Below are positions 3,259 to 25,417 of a stretch of DNA of 32,251 nucleotides, piece by piece. This DNA comes from a virus, in the IMG/VR virus record IMGVR_UViG_3300011113_000300, positions 1 through 32,251 of that record, one strand, 5' to 3'. The stretch's first letter is position 1. The number at the start of each line of letters is the position of its first letter. The translations under genes were made by a program, and so were the position numbers. The notes beneath the pieces were generated by a model that was given only the letters and a program-made list of their open reading frames with translations, was not told the DNA's origin and made no database searches.

Positions 3259-5031
3259 ATGGCTTTAACTAAAGAACAACTTACTATTGAGTATGTAAAA
3301 TGTATGAGAGATACTCCATACGCTCTTCGTACATATTTACAAACTTACGATAACACAGTACAAAAGTATGTTCCATTAGAATTATTTCCAGATCAGGTAA
3401 CTCTTTTAACTGACTATGAAAACTTTGAAGAAAACATTGCACTAAAATACCGTCAGGCTGGAGTATCGACCGTAACTGCGGCATGGATATCTAAAAGGTT
3501 AGTTTTTGCAAAAAAAGAAAGACCAGAAAAAATTCTAATTATTGCAAACAAACTTGACACATCAATGGAGATGGCCAATAAAATTAGATCATTTGTTGAT
3601 CAATGGCCAAAATGGGTTGGTGCTGGATTTTCAGCCGATAAAAACTCACAAAGACATTATAAATTAACAAATGGATGTGAAGTCAAGGCGGTTGCAACAT
3701 CAAGAGATGCTCTTCGTGGGTATACACCAACAATTCTTGTTTTTGACGAGGCAGCATTTATTGAAGCTGACAATGATTTCTGGGCGGCTTGTATGGCATC
3801 CTTATCCACCGGTGGTAAGGTTATTGTAGTTTCCACACCCAACGGATACGATCCGATTTATTACGATGTTTACAACCAAGCAACAAAAGGTATTAACAAC
3901 TTTAAGATTACCGAAATGTTTTGGTGGAGAGATCCAAGATATACTAAAGATTTATATTTGGTACCCACTGATGACATGGTTGATTATTTGTTAAATAAAG
4001 ATGAAAAAGATCATTCCCAAAATATATCATTTGAACATATTGATCCCTATGAAAGAGATTATGAAGAACTAAAAAAATATTTTCAAGAAGGATATAAACC
4101 ATGTTCATCTTGGTATGAAAAAATGGTTAAAAAACTTAAATACGATAAAAGAAAAATAAACCAAGAGTTAAATTGCGAATTTCTTGGATCAGGTGATAAC
4201 GTATTTAACAACAAAGAATTAGATTATATCAAAGAAAATTTACTTCAGGAAGCACCAACAAAAATGATGGGTAATTCTCTTTGGATTTGGAAAGATCCAC
4301 AAGAAGGTCATAAATACATTATGGGAATTGACGTTTCTCGTGGTGATAGTGAAGACTTTTCATCAATTCAAATTATAGATTTTGACGAAAGAGAACAAGT
4401 ATTGGAATATGTTGGAAAAATTCCACCGGATTCATTAGCAGAAATTGCATATAAGTGGGCGGTTATGTATAGTGCGTTTATTGTAATTGATATCACCGGA
4501 GGAATGGGAGTTGCAACAAGTAGAAAACTTCAAGAGATAGGATATAAAAACTTATACATCGATGGAGTTGATAGTACAAACGTTTGGAATTATAATCCAA
4601 AGGCTCAAGATAAAATTCCTGGAATTAATTTTAATAATAAAAGAGTTCAAATTATTGCAGCATTTGAAGAGTATGTTAGACATAGATTCAAAATTAGAAG
4701 TGTTCGTTTATATAACGAAATGAATACATTTGTTTATGTAAATGGAAGGCCTGATCACCAGAAAGGTCAACACGACGACTTAATAATGGCGATGTCCATG
4801 GCCATTTATGTTGGAGAGGTCGCATTTCAAAAACTTGAAAAGGTTACCCAACAGACAAAGGTTATGATTGAGTCATGGACTGTATCAAATAATGATGCGG
4901 TACAAAAACAAATACATTTTGATCCGGTTTTACCAAATGCAAATTTGATGAATGAAAGAAGAGGATATAACACAAACCCATCAAAAGATGACTATATGAA
5001 GTATGGTTGGTTATTTGGTGGTAAAAGATAA
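3259..5031 (+). CDS. Terminase large subunit (gp17-like packaging ATPase/nuclease)
   Basis: 590 residues, close to T4 gp17 (610). It should pump DNA into the prohead and cut the concatemer at the portal vertex. The ATPase half shows a Walker A-like loop at 64-71 (YRQAGVST) where the usual Lys before Ser is Val, a Walker B at 159-165 (ILVFDEA), and the coupling motif VSTPNG at 191-196. The nuclease half shows the three acidic motifs of the RNase H-like fold: GIDVSRGDSED (356-366), VIDITGG (409-415) and HDDLIMA (505-511). The next genes include a fibre, then portal, protease, scaffold and capsid, as in T4 head-gene order. A terminator and a TATTTATA octamer lie just upstream, so it probably starts a late operon. 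Confidence 0.95.
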   Translation: MALTKEQLTIEYVKCMRDTPYALRTYLQTYDNTVQKYVPLELFPDQVTLLTDYENFEENIALKYRQAGVSTVTAAWISKRLVFAKKERPEKILIIANKLDTSMEMANKIRSFVDQWPKWVGAGFSADKNSQRHYKLTNGCEVKAVATSRDALRGYTPTILVFDEAAFIEADNDFWAACMASLSTGGKVIVVSTPNGYDPIYYDVYNQATKGINNFKITEMFWWRDPRYTKDLYLVPTDDMVDYLLNKDEKDHSQNISFEHIDPYERDYEELKKYFQEGYKPCSSWYEKMVKKLKYDKRKINQELNCEFLGSGDNVFNNKELDYIKENLLQEAPTKMMGNSLWIWKDPQEGHKYIMGIDVSRGDSEDFSSIQIIDFDEREQVLEYVGKIPPDSLAEIAYKWAVMYSAFIVIDITGGMGVATSRKLQEIGYKNLYIDGVDSTNVWNYNPKAQDKIPGINFNNKRVQIIAAFEEYVRHRFKIRSVRLYNEMNTFVYVNGRPDHQKGQHDDLIMAMSMAIYVGEVAFQKLEKVTQQTKVMIESWTVSNNDAVQKQIHFDPVLPNANLMNERRGYNTNPSKDDYMKYGWLFGGKR

Positions 5032-8646: not shown

Positions 8647-10473
8647 ATGGAAGAGAATAAAAAATTAACGGTTTGGCAACGATTATCCAAAACATTTGGT
8701 CCTAATGCGTTGTTAGGTCAAGACATACCGACTTATCGATTTGATAAGAAAGAATTATTAAAAACTAGAGATAAAAATCAATACGAAAAAGAATTACTTC
8801 AGGCTCAACAATCTATGTATTTGTCTAATCAGTGGGCAAAAATTGAAAGTAATTTATATACTCAAGCGATTTATTACGAACCAACAAGGCTGGCATCATT
8901 TTATGATTATGAGTCCATGGAGTTCACACCTGAAATATCAACAGCGTTAGATATCTACGCCGAAGAGTCCACAACACCAAATGAAGATGGACACGTATTG
9001 TCAATTTATTCGGAATCTAAAAGAATAAAGGCCATATTAGCCGACCTTTTTAATAACACACTTGATATAAACACCAACTTACAAATGTGGATTCGAAACA
9101 CTTGTAAATATGGTGATAACTTTGTTTACATGAAGTTAGATCCAGAAAAAGGTATTATCGGAGCGGTTCAATTACCCAATATCGAAATCGAAAGATTAGA
9201 GAGAGGTATGAAACCAAAAACTCAAAACACTGAAGTAAAAACTGATGAGAAGGGATTGAAGTTTAATTGGAAAGAAAAAAAAATGGAGTTTAATAGTTGG
9301 GAAGTTGCACACTTTAGACTATTAGGTGACGATAGAAAACTTCCTTACGGTACATCAATGTTAGAAAAAGCTCGTCGTATTTGGAAACAATTAGTATTGG
9401 CTGAAGATGCGATGTTAATCTACCGTACATCAAGAGCTCCTGAAAGAAGGGTGTTTAAAGTGTTTGTTGGTAATATGGATGATAAAGATGTTGAAGCATA
9501 CGTACAAAGAGTTGCAAACAAATTTAAAAGAGATCAAATTGTTGATAATAAAACCGGAAACGTAGATTTGAGATTTAATCAAATGGCAGTTGACCAAGAT
9601 TACTTTATTCCTGTTCGTGATGCAACTCAAACAATGCCAATCGAGACATTACCTGGTGGTACAAATCTTTCCGAGATTGCAGATATTGAATATATTCAAA
9701 AGAAACTTGTTACCGCATTACGTATACCAAAGGCGTATTTAGGTTTTGAAGAACCGGTTGGTGATGGTAAAAATTTATCATTACTTGATATTAGATTTGC
9801 AAGAACAATCAATAGAATTCAAAAAAATATTTTATCGGAACTTAATAAAATTGCAATAGTTCATTTATTCTTATTAGGATTCGAAGATGAATTACAAAAC
9901 TTCACATTAGGATTAAACAATCCATCTAAACAGGCTGATTTATTAATGGTAGATGTTTGGAAAGAGAAAGTTTTATTATACAAAGATTTAGTCTCTGAAA
10001 TTCCTAACTCAATTGCACCAACATCAGCAACTTGGGCTAAAAAACATATTTTTGGATTTTCTGATGAAGATATTAAACTTGACGTTCAAAGAATGAGAAT
10101 GGAAAGAGCGGTAGCCGCCGAACTAGCAAACACCGCAACAATCATTTCACATACAGGTATGTTTGATCAAATTGATAAGTTATACAAAACTGTTTCTGGT
10201 TCTACTGAAGCTCCACCTGCCGAAGGGGGTGATGAAGGATTAGGAGGTCTTGGAGGACCTCCATCTCCACCATCAGGACCTCCATCTCCACCATCAGGTC
10301 CACCATCAGGTCCACCACCAGGACCAGAACCTGGAGGACCAGCCGGAGGACTTCCAGAAAATAAAGTAAATTTAGAAAAATTAATTCTAGAGTCTGAAGA
10401 TGATGATTTCTTTCAGAAGAACGGATCATTAGGTGAAATGGAAAAAGAATTATTGCGAATATTAAAAGATTAA
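8647..10473 (+). CDS. Portal vertex protein (gp20-like)
   Basis: 608 residues against about 524 in T4 gp20. It forms the dodecameric gate for DNA packaging and the site where the prohead assembles. The core resembles T4-type portals: EFTPEISTALDIYAEEST near residue 100, a long beta/alpha wing region with GDNFVYMKLDPEKG, and the clip/stem part ALRIPKAYLGFEEPVGDGKN near 357-376. The C-terminus is unusual: residues ~519-575 are Gly/Pro/Ser repeats (GGPPSPPSGPPSPPSGPP), followed by NLEKLILESEDDD, which contains a possible protease site (I-L-E/S). It sits after the fibre gene and before a helical protein that may match T4 gp67/68 in position. A TATTTAAT word at 8611 may be a weak late promoter. 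Confidence 0.93.
   Translation: MEENKKLTVWQRLSKTFGPNALLGQDIPTYRFDKKELLKTRDKNQYEKELLQAQQSMYLSNQWAKIESNLYTQAIYYEPTRLASFYDYESMEFTPEISTALDIYAEESTTPNEDGHVLSIYSESKRIKAILADLFNNTLDINTNLQMWIRNTCKYGDNFVYMKLDPEKGIIGAVQLPNIEIERLERGMKPKTQNTEVKTDEKGLKFNWKEKKMEFNSWEVAHFRLLGDDRKLPYGTSMLEKARRIWKQLVLAEDAMLIYRTSRAPERRVFKVFVGNMDDKDVEAYVQRVANKFKRDQIVDNKTGNVDLRFNQMAVDQDYFIPVRDATQTMPIETLPGGTNLSEIADIEYIQKKLVTALRIPKAYLGFEEPVGDGKNLSLLDIRFARTINRIQKNILSELNKIAIVHLFLLGFEDELQNFTLGLNNPSKQADLLMVDVWKEKVLLYKDLVSEIPNSIAPTSATWAKKHIFGFSDEDIKLDVQRMRMERAVAAELANTATIISHTGMFDQIDKLYKTVSGSTEAPPAEGGDEGLGGLGGPPSPPSGPPSPPSGPPSGPPPGPEPGGPAGGLPENKVNLEKLILESEDDDFFQKNGSLGEMEKELLRILKD
10255..10320 (+). repeat. 21-bp tandem repeat encoding a GPPSPPS tail
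   Basis: Bases 10255-10275 are repeated exactly at 10276-10296, and shorter 12-base units (GGTCCACCATCA and a one-base variant) follow at 10297-10320. The resulting protein is a Pro/Gly-rich linker in the portal C-terminus. Confidence 0.85.
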
Positions 10474-10496: not shown

Positions 10497-11213
10497 ATGA
10501 AATTCGGTCTTTTAAAAAGTAAAATAGAAAAATATTTGGTGGAATCTTACAAGAATAAAAACTTTAAAGATTCAATGTTTGTGTTTAATGAATTAATTTT
10601 GAAAAATAAAAACGTATCAAAACTTTTTTATTTATATGATGATCTATCATCGAATAAATCATTAAGTGAATCAATTGCAAACGAGTATATCAACGAATCT
10701 ATTGTTATATTCGAAAATACAATTAATAAGATTTCAAAAAAACAAATGGATGAAATTCAGTTGTGGGTGGGACATTTAAAAACTGAAAACAAATATTCAG
10801 ATATTGATAATTTATTTTCATCAAATCTTTTAACATTAGAAAATAAATTAAAAAGTAGAAAAACTATTTTAGAAAATTTAAAAAAAACAACAATCAAAGA
10901 AGACTTATTTGAAAATGTTAGTCTAAATACTTTGGTTGAGGCGGCAAACAAAACCGTAAATAATTATATAAATGAATTAGACACATCAAGTAAAAAAAGA
11001 CTACTCAAAGTTTTATCTGAAGATGATTCTAAATTAGAAACCAAATATGAAATTCTTAAAGAATCGGTTGTGGAAAAATTGGAAGATCTAAAATCTACAG
11101 AATCTGAAAGTGATGTTGTAAGTAGAATTGAAGAAACGATTCAAAAAGTATCGAATGAGAAATATGATAAAATTTCATACTTCAAACTTTTTGAACTGAA
11201 CAAAAGTCTTTAA
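10497..11213 (+). CDS. Helical protein after portal, prohead-core candidate
   Basis: 238 residues, predicted almost entirely helical and Lys/Glu/Ser/Asn-rich, without enzyme motifs. The N-terminus is a helix (FGLLKSKIEKYLVES) that ends L14-V15-E16/S17, fitting the T4 prohead protease rule at the same position as in three other proteins here. In T4 the genes between portal (20) and protease (21) are the small prohead-core genes 67 and 68, so a core or internal head role is likely from location; sequence similarity to them is not evident to me. Its stop codon shares a TTAA with the stop of the oppositely oriented bS21 gene. A TATTTATA octamer lies 21 bases upstream of its ATG. Confidence 0.75.
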   Translation: MKFGLLKSKIEKYLVESYKNKNFKDSMFVFNELILKNKNVSKLFYLYDDLSSNKSLSESIANEYINESIVIFENTINKISKKQMDEIQLWVGHLKTENKYSDIDNLFSSNLLTLENKLKSRKTILENLKKTTIKEDLFENVSLNTLVEAANKTVNNYINELDTSSKKRLLKVLSEDDSKLETKYEILKESVVEKLEDLKSTESESDVVSRIEETIQKVSNEKYDKISYFKLFELNKSL

Positions 11214-11401
11214 TTATTATTATTGTTAAATTTTTTCTGAACGTAAATCGCTTTTTTATTTTGTTGTCTTTTAACCACAGACTTTTTTGTGAATTCTCGT
11301 CTATCGTTTAAAATTGAATTTTGTCTGGTTTTAATAACCTTACTTTTCAATTCTTTTATCGCTCTCTCGATATCATTTTTTTTAACTTTTACAATTAACA
11401 T
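11210..11401 (-). CDS. rpsU: Phage-encoded ribosomal protein bS21
   Basis: 63 residues that align well by eye with Bacteroidota bS21: start MLIVKVKKNDIERAIKELK, centre RREFTKKSVVKRQQNKKA, then IYVQ. It would join the 30S subunit next to the 16S 3' end. The Tyr (residue 53) in KAIYVQ aligns with the bS21 Tyr that, as I recall from the Flavobacterium johnsoniae ribosome structure, packs against the anti-Shine-Dalgarno. The tail differs from cellular proteins: KKFNNNNN from an AAT-type microsatellite. The gene stands alone on the minus strand inside the plus-strand head operon; its TAA shares the palindrome TTAA with the stop of the neighbour. No Shine-Dalgarno is seen before its ATG (TTAAAAAGT). 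Phage bS21 genes are known from other phages. Confident in family, not in effect. Confidence 0.87.
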   Translation of the reverse strand: MLIVKVKKNDIERAIKELKSKVIKTRQNSILNDRREFTKKSVVKRQQNKKAIYVQKKFNNNNN

Positions 11402-11417
11402 ACTTTTTAAATGGTTT

Positions 11418-11425
11418 TATATTTG
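11418..11425 (+). promoter_or_regulatory. Weak Bacteroidota -7-like element
   Basis: TATATTTG matches the TAnnTTTG element of Bacteroidota housekeeping promoters and lies 63 bases before the ATG at 11488, but no TTG is present 17-23 bases upstream. It is listed because the 86-base gap between divergent genes (11402-11487) should hold a promoter. Confidence 0.25.
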
Positions 11426-11487
11426 ATATATACTTTAAATTTATGTAATTTTTATAAAAATAAACATAATAAGTATGAAAAAATTTT

Positions 11488-11955
11488 ATGAAAAAAGGAA
11501 AAACCTCAAAAATCAATGGTTTTAGATCGTCAAAAGTATCTTATGGAACCGTTGATTCAAAAGAATTTAAATCTTTATATTTAAACATCCAAACCTGGGT
11601 AGAACCCAAAAAAGAAGTTGATAACTGGTCAAGACTTGTGTTAAACACAAATCGATCTATAAAACATTCAGTTTACAATAATTTAGATAAAACAATTTTC
11701 GATGAAAAATTTATTGTAGATATGGATTTAAGAACCAGTGGTTTACAACCTAAAAAAAAATCTTTTATGAATTTAGAAATAAATTTATTTTTAATACAAG
11801 AAATTGATTTCAAATCTATAAAATTAAAAAGATCATTGAAAAAATTAACCAAAGACATATACGATGATGTTTTTATAAGAAACGAAAACTTTAAATTTTA
11901 TCTCACTAAAAACGGTAACACAAAAAAAACTATTATAAAAACTGAACTTGTTTAA
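11488..11955 (+). CDS. Unassigned 155-residue basic protein
   Basis: A Lys-rich protein with a short disordered start (MKKGKTSKINGFRSSK), a conserved-looking centre (LYLNIQTWVEPKKEVDNWSR) and alternating hydrophobic strands near LEINLFLIQ. No domain was recognised. It lies between the bS21 gene (opposite strand) and the prohead protease gene, inside the head-assembly block, so a head-related role is possible by position only. The ATG at 11475 just upstream is out of frame, which supports 11488 as the start. Confidence 0.65.
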   Translation: MKKGKTSKINGFRSSKVSYGTVDSKEFKSLYLNIQTWVEPKKEVDNWSRLVLNTNRSIKHSVYNNLDKTIFDEKFIVDMDLRTSGLQPKKKSFMNLEINLFLIQEIDFKSIKLKRSLKKLTKDIYDDVFIRNENFKFYLTKNGNTKKTIIKTELV

Positions 11956-11982: not shown

Positions 11983-12711
11983 ATGAAAATATTAGGACCC
12001 AACGAAATTGGTAAGGGTATTCTTGTTGAATACGATGCCGGATATATAAATCCAATGGAAAGAAGAAATTTGGATTTAATCAGAGAAAATAAATCTTTTT
12101 TAGACTATTCGAAACCATTCGAGTTTTATGCGGTTCTTCAAAAATATAATACACCAAATAGAAACGGAAGAGTTTACCCCGAAAAGATACTGAAAAGAGA
12201 GGCCGACAACTATAAAAAAATGATTGATAAGGGTGTTGCACTATCAGAGTTGAATCACCCTGAATCCTCTTTAATTGATTTGGATCGTGTATCACACGCA
12301 ATTACTGAAGTATGGTGGGAAGGTCCAGTTCTTCTTGGTAAATTAAGATTGTTAACAAGTCCTGGATTCCATGAAAGAGGTATTGTATCCACAAAGGGCG
12401 ATTTGGCGGCTAATTATCTTCGTCAAGGAGTAACACTGGGTATTTCTTCTCGTGGAGTTGGGTCACTTAAAAAAGTAGGTGATCAAAACGAAGTTCAAGA
12501 TGATTTTGAATTAATTTGTTTTGACTTGGTTTCATCTCCATCAACACCTGGGGCTTACTTGTTTGTAAATAAAGATGATAGAATGAAATTTGAAGAAAAC
12601 TTGGATGAAGAAAAGAATATGAATTTAGAAAGAGCGACTGGTATGAATACATCTTCAATTGATAAGACGAAAAGTTTAATGGATAAATTATCAGCATTTC
12701 TTGATAAATAA
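11983..12711 (+). CDS. Prohead core protease (gp21-like, S77 family)
   Basis: 242 residues, near the T4 gp21 length (212). It should be enclosed in the prohead and, after assembly, cut scaffold, capsid protein and internal proteins. Motifs shared with gp21 are visible in order: NRNGRVYPEKIL (59-70), the His motif ELNHPES (H92), WWEGPVLLGKLRL (111-123), the nucleophile region GISSRGVGS (S155 or S156) and a later Asp segment (FDLVSSPSTPGA, D181). The C-terminal helix (about 215-242) could be the self-cleaved tail. It is followed by a small protein, the scaffold and the capsid gene, the same order as 21-22-23 in T4. A TATTTATA octamer lies 27 bases upstream. Confidence 0.95.
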   Translation: MKILGPNEIGKGILVEYDAGYINPMERRNLDLIRENKSFLDYSKPFEFYAVLQKYNTPNRNGRVYPEKILKREADNYKKMIDKGVALSELNHPESSLIDLDRVSHAITEVWWEGPVLLGKLRLLTSPGFHERGIVSTKGDLAANYLRQGVTLGISSRGVGSLKKVGDQNEVQDDFELICFDLVSSPSTPGAYLFVNKDDRMKFEENLDEEKNMNLERATGMNTSSIDKTKSLMDKLSAFLDK

Positions 12712-14724: not shown

Positions 14725-16578
14725 ATGGGAGCATTATTAGAATCAGGTCTTGTTGGTAACATCGGTCTTAAGCACCTTAAAGTTATCAAAGAAGATACTA
14801 TTAACAAATGGGACAGATTAGGGTTCCTTGAAGGCTTGAGAGGCCACCTAAAAGAAAACGTAGCACAGTTGTATGAAAACCAAGCTTCTTTCTTGATTAA
14901 CGAAGCAACTTCTGAAGGTTCTAACGGAGCGTTCGAAACAGTTGTTTTTCCAATCGTAAGAAGAGTTTTCTCTAAATTGTTGGCTAACGATATCGTATCT
15001 GTACAAGCAATGAACTTACCTATTGGTAAATTGTTCTACTTTGTACCTAAAATCCAAGGGTACCAAAATGGTTACGCAAACGGAACTGAAGGAGTACACT
15101 ATCCACCAATCGGATCACCTGAAGCGGTTGCTGCTGGTGATAACGATCCAGGACAAGGTTATGGAGATCCTAGTTTAACAAACTTCCCTTACGCAAAAAA
15201 TCTTTATGATTTATTTTATGAAGGTGCTGAACCAGGATTAGATCCAGAAGGTTTATTTGATTATTCTAAAGGTCGTTGGTCTGCAGTCACTGCAGCACCT
15301 ACAGTTGTAGTTTGGTCCAATGGAGATTTAGTAAATGCTGGTAACGACAACGCACAATACCTTGGTAACACTAGAAAAGTACTTATCAAACTTTGTGGAT
15401 GGTCTTCAGTTTTAGGAGCTGGAAAACTAATCGGTCCTGATGGAAATGAAATTGATAGTGAGACTTTCTTGTCCGACTTGAAAATTTTACCAGGAGCTGG
15501 TTTATCATTTGGTGCTGGTTCAGTATGTCCTACACCAAGTTCTACAACACCTTTGTTATTTAGAGTTGTAACTCAAAAATATGGTAAAGGTATTGTTCAG
15601 TATGGTAATCAACAACAAACAGCATTCCCAACTACTGGTAATGGTGGTTCATTCTATGATATCTGTAACGCTGATGGATGTATTATTCTTGAAGTAGACT
15701 TGTCATGTCCAGCATGTGCTTCATGTGGTGATGATTCACTTGATGGTTACACTGGATCAACAATTGATGAAATTTTATCTGGTAATTCATTTGTTGCTGT
15801 ATGGAGAAGATACGAAGAATTAGAATTTGAAGAAAAAATCGGTGAGGTTTCTTTCGATTTAGAATCAGTGACTGTTTCTGTAAGTGAAAGAAAATTAAGA
15901 GCACAATGGTCTCCAGAACTCGCTCAAGACGTTGCGGCATTCCACAACATCGATGCTGAAGCTGAATTAACAGCATTGTTATCAGAACAAGTTGCAGCTG
16001 AAATCGATAGAGAAATTCTACGTGACTTGAGAAAAGGAGCGGCTTGGAATTTACGTTGGGACTACAACGGATGGAGAAGATTGTCTTTAACAACTTCTTA
16101 CACTCAAAAAGACTGGAACCAAACTTTGATTACAGCAATCAACCAGTTGTCAGCACAAATCCACAAATCTACTTTGAGAGGTGGAGCTAACTGGATCGTT
16201 GTTTCTTCTGAAGTTTCAGCTATTTTTGATGATCTTGAGTACTTCCACGTATCAAATGCTTCACCGGAGCAAGATCAATACAACATGGGTATCGAAAGAG
16301 TTGGTACTTTAGCAGGACGTTACCAAGTTTACCGTGATCCTTACTTCCCAGCTAACCAAGTGTTACTAGGACACAAAGGAACATCATTGTTAGACACAGG
16401 TTACATCTACGCACCGTATGTACCTCTACAATTGACACCTACAATGTATAACCCATTCAACTTTACGCCAATCAAAGGTATTATGACCAGATACGCGAAA
16501 AAGATGGTAAATAACCGCTTCTACGCCCGTATTACCGTTGACGGAGTTCGTACATTTGATTTAAGAGAATTGAGATAA
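14725..16578 (+). CDS. Major capsid protein (gp23-like)
   Basis: 617 residues against 521 in T4 gp23. The HK97-fold parts are recognisable: NKWDRLGFLEGL (27-38), VFPIVRRVFSKLLANDIVSVQ (74-94; T4 has VRRAIPNLIAFDICGVQ), MNLPIGKLF, and the C-terminal FTPIKGIMTRYAKKMVNNRF. A predicted cleavage FLINE/AT after Glu60 matches T4 gp23, cut after FLTE at residue 65. A surface insertion region (~190-345) carries a Cys cluster (C314, C319, C328, C331, C334). The gene has more GC-rich, optimised-looking codons than its neighbours, as usual for the most abundant virion protein. It ends at a strong terminator. Very confident. Confidence 0.95.
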   Translation: MGALLESGLVGNIGLKHLKVIKEDTINKWDRLGFLEGLRGHLKENVAQLYENQASFLINEATSEGSNGAFETVVFPIVRRVFSKLLANDIVSVQAMNLPIGKLFYFVPKIQGYQNGYANGTEGVHYPPIGSPEAVAAGDNDPGQGYGDPSLTNFPYAKNLYDLFYEGAEPGLDPEGLFDYSKGRWSAVTAAPTVVVWSNGDLVNAGNDNAQYLGNTRKVLIKLCGWSSVLGAGKLIGPDGNEIDSETFLSDLKILPGAGLSFGAGSVCPTPSSTTPLLFRVVTQKYGKGIVQYGNQQQTAFPTTGNGGSFYDICNADGCIILEVDLSCPACASCGDDSLDGYTGSTIDEILSGNSFVAVWRRYEELEFEEKIGEVSFDLESVTVSVSERKLRAQWSPELAQDVAAFHNIDAEAELTALLSEQVAAEIDREILRDLRKGAAWNLRWDYNGWRRLSLTTSYTQKDWNQTLITAINQLSAQIHKSTLRGGANWIVVSSEVSAIFDDLEYFHVSNASPEQDQYNMGIERVGTLAGRYQVYRDPYFPANQVLLGHKGTSLLDTGYIYAPYVPLQLTPTMYNPFNFTPIKGIMTRYAKKMVNNRFYARITVDGVRTFDLRELR

Positions 16579-16650: not shown

Positions 16651-16860
16651 TTACTTCAATAATACTCTAATTGATTTCGATAAAACTTCAGTTTCACCAA
16701 TAGTAAAACAATTTTTATCGTACGCATGACGTACCGCCTCAATAAGATATACAAGTGCATGATTTTTATCCATAGTATCTAAAATACTATCTAAATGATC
16801 TTCAGTTTGTAGATCAATTCTGTTAAACAGATTACCAAATAATTTATTTTCGTTTTCCAT
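16651..16860 (-). CDS. Unassigned 69-residue protein
   Basis: A small acidic, helical protein (NKLFGNLFNRIDLQ, then ALVYLIEAVRHAYDKN) convergent with the capsid gene and divergent from the next plus-strand gene. TATAAATA, the T4-type late octamer, reads on its own strand 17 bases upstream of the ATG. No family was recognised; the regular amphipathic pattern and good start context support a real gene. Confidence 0.65.
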   Translation of the reverse strand: MENENKLFGNLFNRIDLQTEDHLDSILDTMDKNHALVYLIEAVRHAYDKNCFTIGETEVLSKSIRVLLK

Positions 16861-24670: not shown

Positions 24671-25417
24671 TTATTTAAAAATTTCCTGAATTAGTTCAAC
24701 ATAGATTTTTTTATATCTTTTCATACAAACTCTAATTTCTTTTGTTGTTAAGTTTGTCATTTCTCGTAATTCGAATAAAATTACATTTTTATTGAATTTA
24801 TTGTTATTTGATTCTGGTAGTAAATTTTTATAATTGTCAAATAAATCAGAAATAGCTCTACCAAGTTTTTTTTCTTCGTCTGTAATTTTTTTATCATTCA
24901 TATTATCGTACAGTTTTTCCTTAAACTTTCTGATAATTTCTTCAGTCGAAATTTCTTCTTCGTCTATAAAATAGATTAAGTCCGGGTTATTTTGAATGTC
25001 AGATGAAATATCTTCATAAGAAACTTTTCTATTCATTTCTTTTTGATCTTTCATTATTTGACCCATCAAATAGTTTTTACAAATAGTCCCAAAGTAAGAA
25101 TATGCCTTTTTTTCTTTTGAAGGTTTAAACTTATCAATTTTGGTCATTAAAAAAGAATGAGTGTCATTATGAATTTCATCATAATTCATATCTTTCCTAT
25201 ACAATTTATATCTTCTTATAATTGAAGATATCATTTTATCTAAAGGGTGCCTTAAAAAATCATTATATATTTTGTTTTTATCTTCAAAAGAACTGGCGAT
25301 TAAAAAATCTCTAACCGCCAATTCTTCCCTTTCCGCAAAATAATTTGTTGTTGTTGGTTTTCTCCCTTTCTTTTTCTTTGTTTCACAATTTAAACAATTT
25401 TCATCTTTTTGTAACAT
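24671..25417 (-). CDS. Late-transcription sigma factor (gp55-like)
   Basis: 248 residues. Residues ~58-135 resemble sigma region 2: DKMISSIIRRYKLYRKDMNY, then ETHSFL-like acidic helix and KAYSYFGTICKNYLMGQIMK, followed by a basic stretch; T4 gp55 has a comparable [20 protein letters not shown]. It probably guides host RNA polymerase to phage late promoters such as the TATTTATA sites. The last ~45 residues (LFELREMTNLTTKEIRVCMK) look like a helix-turn-helix of region 4 type, which T4 gp55 lacks. A CxxC (C8, C11) lies in the N-terminal tail. The ATG overlaps the upstream stop (TAATG), so it is translated with the glycosyltransferase gene before it. Good confidence in sigma-like identity, moderate in the gp55 role. 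Confidence 0.8.
   Translation of the reverse strand: MLQKDENCLNCETKKKKGRKPTTTNYFAEREELAVRDFLIASSFEDKNKIYNDFLRHPLDKMISSIIRRYKLYRKDMNYDEIHNDTHSFLMTKIDKFKPSKEKKAYSYFGTICKNYLMGQIMKDQKEMNRKVSYEDISSDIQNNPDLIYFIDEEEISTEEIIRKFKEKLYDNMNDKKITDEEKKLGRAISDLFDNYKNLLPESNNNKFNKNVILFELREMTNLTTKEIRVCMKRYKKIYVELIQEIFK

Follow-up and report, generated by a model that had tools for sequence, protein, structure and literature searches.

Antisense bS21 genes in a phage head gene cluster lack the extended Shine-Dalgarno sequence of host rpsU

Introduction

How does a phage copy of a ribosomal protein beat the copy of its host? The question applies to bS21, the ribosomal protein that phages carry most often. It is raised here by a 32,251-base linear virus record (the window, meaning the whole stretch of DNA analysed) in which a bS21 gene lies antisense within the head genes. 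Host rpsU is autoregulated by bS21, its extended Shine-Dalgarno (SD) sequence being read by ribosomes that lack bS21, and pairing energies below -13 kcal/mol are characteristic of this gene (PMC9976891). McNutt et al. speculated that this autoregulation quickly replenishes host bS21 and acts as a counter-defence (PMC9976891).

Chen et al. 2022 described antisense bS21 in this head gene cluster in phages with predicted Bacteroidetes hosts, reported late expression of the phage bS21 along with the major capsid protein (MCP), and hypothesized preferential translation of phage messages (PMC9723584). Because that study covers the system in detail, we treat the window finding as one more case within a group already described. 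A preliminary description of this DNA had called phage bS21 in a Bacteroidota-type setting already known, and the publication on this phage group bears that out. By similarity to the published group, the window virus has a putative Bacteroidota-type host. The main text of PMC9723584 contains nothing on promoters or autoregulation, and its SD passages omit the SD of the bS21 gene. A literature search of open-licence papers found no report comparing the SD sequences of host rpsU and phage bS21. The absence of a host-type extended SD from phage bS21 genes appears to be new.

Results

The surroundings of the bS21 gene form a T4-like head cluster with terminase, portal, protease and Gp23-type capsid protein genes. 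The gene itself is antisense and is flanked by two conserved genes, with the portal and protease genes beyond them. The features of the window used below are as follows.

3259 to 5031, plus strand: terminase large subunit
8647 to 10473, plus strand: portal protein
10497 to 11213, plus strand: convergent conserved neighbour, 238 aa, no assigned function, with a TATTTATA leader
11210 to 11401, minus strand: phage bS21 gene, 63 aa, with profile and PDB matches; Tyr53 is the equivalent of host Tyr54
11402 to 11487, minus strand: bS21 leader, without an SD (pairing with the Flavobacterium 16S tail, -2.0 kcal/mol); intergenic region shared with the divergent gene at 11488
11424 to 11432, minus strand: TATATATCA leader motif, candidate late promoter or operator
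11488 to 11955, plus strand: divergent conserved neighbour, 155 aa, no assigned function; confident fold, weak tail/neck-like matches
11983 to 12711, plus strand: head maturation protease
14725 to 16578, plus strand: major capsid protein, Gp23 type
24671 to 25417, minus strand: gene weakly matching a late sigma factor (E 5.5e-5)

The fold of the divergent neighbour was predicted at pLDDT 88. Its one clear structural match was an uncharacterised viral homologue, accompanied by the weak neck/tail-like matches, and assigning a function from the fold was rejected on these grounds. A second small antisense open reading frame (ORF) of the head cluster comes right behind the capsid gene (16651-16860, minus strand, 69 aa) and gave no PHROGs match. 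In the segment 28230-31297 (minus strand), one gene is PhoH-like, one resembles a heptose-phosphate adenylyltransferase, and two neighbouring genes resemble nucleotide-sugar epimerases; the sugar genes perhaps serve surface sugar changes.

The bS21 ORF runs from an ATG at 11401 to 11210 on the minus strand over 63 codons, and its 3' end overlaps the converging gene by 4 bases. The Pfam profile PF01165 (S21) matched residues 4-55 of the product with 35.1 bits (E 1.1e-8), exceeding the gathering score of 27. The NCBIfam equivalog TIGR00030 gave 23.8 against a cut-off of 28.95, below it by about five bits. In a phmmer search of the PDB, the top two matches were the bS21 chains 9i5v and 7jil (F. 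johnsoniae), with E about 2e-6, and the alignment places window Tyr53 opposite F. johnsoniae Tyr54. The AF2 model (pLDDT 84) has helices at residues 11-27 and 39-62. Foldseek of this model against the PDB gave a single hit, B. subtilis bS21, whose E of 3.8 is not significant; a pair of short helices offers too little information. The profile and alignment results confirm the ORF as a phage bS21 gene. Both the assignment of the 63-residue product to bS21 and the retention of the aligned tyrosine at residue 53, as first described, thus hold.

A scan of IMG/VR for viral relatives encoding bS21 found 208 loci, of which 80 near relatives were retained. Of these 80, all have gene 10497 and 79 have gene 11488, each time in the orientation opposite to that of bS21. 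Wherever the terminase, portal, protease or MCP gene is in view, it too runs opposite to bS21. An antisense bS21 gene among these four genes, the mark of the group of Chen et al., was thus found at the 80 close loci, and the same arrangement recurs at 26 of 31 loci from more distant phages. The terminases of eight measured distant phages are 66-70% identical to that of the window. Another arrangement occurs at loci L182 and L190, where protease, bS21 and MCP genes all share one strand. The median dN/dS of phage bS21 was 0.16, and all 231 usable pairs fell below 0.5; by this measure the gene is under purifying selection. The 80 retained viral loci, the low dN/dS and the conserved opposite-strand flanking genes indicate that the ORF is more than a chance frame. 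The earlier reading of bS21 as encoded alone and antisense inside the head genes, in a transcription unit of its own, is likewise supported and had already been published for this phage group (PMC9723584).

Comparison of 36 distinct phage with 54 distinct host bS21 proteins located the phage-specific changes. The position equivalent to Tyr54, a mark of the Bacteroidia-type bS21 that sequesters the anti-SD, is aromatic in all 36 phage proteins (Y in 33, F in 3). In the central part of the protein, some twelve positions are completely different from host bS21, with the segment fixed as KELKSKVIKTRQNS in phages and KRYKRKFDKTGTVR in hosts. In host numbering, the fixed differences are Y/F19L, R21S, F23V, D24I, G27R, T/V28Q, R33N, A/Q37E and P41K, among others. 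With so many middle positions changed, the phage protein may not be a simple substitute for host bS21. The poly-Asn tail described as replacing the host C-terminus is present in the window and its nearest relatives and absent from the others, whose tails read KFKND, KLKSND, KIKIKD, ITPKDL and so on. It was rejected as a meaningful feature and put down to lineage. What changes in the tail across the family is the charge after the tyrosine, mostly +2 in phages and mostly -1 in hosts.

Pairing energies between SD and anti-SD were computed over the 30 bases before each start codon, using the 16S 3' tail GGAACACCUCCUUUCUAGA taken from three Flavobacterium genomes. An extended SD was found in 80 of 80 sampled host rpsU genes, each at -18.3 kcal/mol or stronger, in a sample that is heavy in Flavobacteriaceae because it was picked by similarity to F. 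johnsoniae bS21. Among 108 phage bS21 genes (80 close and 28 more distant), none carried an extended SD and none paired more strongly than -5.1 kcal/mol; these counts take in near-identical sequences, and the 80 close genes encode 36 different proteins behind 30 different 30-base leaders. At -2.0 kcal/mol, the window gene falls short of the about -13 kcal/mol that defines an extended SD.

Strong SDs (below -8 kcal/mol) were absent from all 27 window ORFs of at least 100 aa, in agreement with the earlier statement that the phage mRNAs lack SD sequences. The same description had suggested that bS21 could thereby bias ribosomes toward phage mRNAs, which our data do not support. In Flavobacteriaceae-type contigs, 312 of 313 sampled non-rpsU ORFs were also without a strong SD, one ORF having it. 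Since host mRNAs are SD-less as well, this property cannot mark phage mRNA or steer ribosomes to it. Any ribosome bias must rest elsewhere, for example on the phage-specific N-terminal helix or on A-rich leaders (A content 52% in phage versus 41% in host leaders, p 0.0005).

Phage genes with strong SDs, which might profit from bS21-poor ribosomes, were also sought. Across three relatives of 290, 154 and 104 kb, AGGAGG-start patterns were overall no more numerous than in the reversed-pattern control, and none of six such sites inspected closely had a gene-sized frame behind it. This candidate was rejected. Outside the 108 counted genes, the bS21 gene of the 735-kb phage LR756501.1 has a strong SD, with AAAGGAGGATAA before the ATG (-12.1 kcal/mol; locus L202, before base 1501), so SD absence is not universal among phages. 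Other genes of LR756501 also have SDs more often (11 of 90 ORFs below -8 kcal/mol), and for this reason its copy, the sole SD-keeping one among those examined, was rejected as a clean example.

The leaders of the cluster carry recurring motifs. TATTTAT occurs at most 80 bases upstream of the terminase gene in 25 of 25 distinct leaders, of gene 10497 in 35 of 35, of the protease gene in 31 of 31 and of the MCP gene in 22 of 26, far exceeding shuffled expectation. The bS21 leaders of close relatives instead carry TAT[AT]TATCA (30 of 32 distinct leaders versus 0.3 expected), which as a rule begins some 30 bases ahead of the ATG, and the TATATATCA motif of these leaders resembles the TATTTAT of the head genes. 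In more distant phages, TATTTAT itself appears in 4 of 10 distinct bS21 leaders. Within the window, TATTTATA occurs 11 times (both strands summed), mostly just upstream of genes. Example sites are given below.

3238, 10476, 11956 and 13056, plus strand: TATTTATA
19054, 20535 and 24667, minus strand: TATTTATA

We take TATTTATA as a likely late promoter motif in this group of phages. The leader motifs are candidate late promoters, with bS21 having its own variant; an operator is the alternative reading of that variant. We infer from these leaders that bS21 is expressed late and free of host feedback.

Discussion

These observations suggested a route by which the phage copy could prevail. Phage bS21 would be produced late, from a promoter of its own, and would replace host bS21 in the 30S subunits of the host. 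There, the conserved Tyr53 and the basic C-terminal helix would hold the 16S 3' tail out of reach in the manner of host bS21, and ribosomes carrying the phage protein would keep translating SD-less messages. The feedback that limits host bS21 acts through bS21-lacking ribosomes translating the SD-bearing rpsU; because the phage gene has no SD, it would stand outside this control. Since strong rpsU translation comes from bS21-lacking ribosomes, phage bS21 filling those ribosomes should hold host rpsU down while phage bS21 is still made, and the ribosome pool would shift to the phage form. We infer that the protein is incorporated and host rpsU repressed, and likewise whatever phage translation may gain from this. 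That a phage-adapted bS21, made late, replaces host bS21 in the 30S subunit and escapes the SD-based feedback is a proposal to which we give an even chance. Its further consequence, that the lack of an SD combined with the kept sensor residue turns host autoregulation against the host, switching rpsU off and converting the pool with no need to degrade host bS21, is put forward tentatively, as less likely than not.

The missing SD could also be neutral, as practically all genes of the phage are without one. This point leads to the simplest rival, in which the phage merely tops up a loosely bound bS21 late, as host synthesis falls, and the missing SD reflects ordinary phage signals. The kept Tyr54 equivalent, the strong purifying selection and the lack of an SD in every other phage gene examined fit such a supply role, which leaves the many fixed non-host residues of the phage proteins unexplained; we consider it quite unlikely. 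A second rival is the published hypothesis of specialised ribosomes (PMC9723584), whereby the changed mRNA-facing N-terminal helix recognises features of phage leaders, so that phage messages are preferred. The fixed middle segment and the A-richer phage leaders agree with this hypothesis, although the A-richness may merely follow the lower G+C content of the phage, and phage and host messages alike are SD-less. On balance, we regard specialised ribosomes as unlikely.

Experimental evidence on a phage bS21 comes from pelagiphage HTVC008M, whose protein enters E. coli ribosomes and leaves them with about 5% of translation (PMC6375957). The entry into ribosomes speaks for the feedback proposal and the drop in translation against it. 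The drop would favour a role in shut-off, with phage bS21 poisoning host ribosomes or host initiation instead of aiding phage translation. That test crossed bacterial classes, and poisoning fits poorly with late expression beside the capsid genes (PMC9723584), as the same ribosomes make capsids. We therefore judge shut-off highly improbable.

Under the feedback-escape proposal, the split in extended SDs between host (80/80) and phage (0/108) genes suggests that the reverse of the outcome envisaged by McNutt et al. is possible. It also brings the contest between phage and host bS21 within reach of an easy reporter test in F. johnsoniae.

Compared with known systems, the window gene shares with HTVC008M (Mizuno et al. 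2019, PMC6375957) a phage-encoded bS21; the pelagiphage belongs to an alphaproteobacterial lineage with another host translation system. F. johnsoniae bS21 (7jil; PMC9976891) is of the same protein family, has the Tyr54 equivalent and is of near-equal length. It differs in its middle segment and in its acidic tail, the phage tail being basic, and its gene rpsU carries the extended SD that the phage gene lacks. The closest match is with the freshwater Bacteroidetes myoviruses of Chen et al. 2022, in which Tyr54 or another aromatic residue is kept and C-termini are divergent yet clade-specific (PMC9723584). The window shares their gene order, the antisense placement of bS21 between those structural genes, the aromatic position 54, a clade-specific C-terminus, a similar G+C content, and the PhoH and sugar genes, and it shows no difference in kind from these phages.
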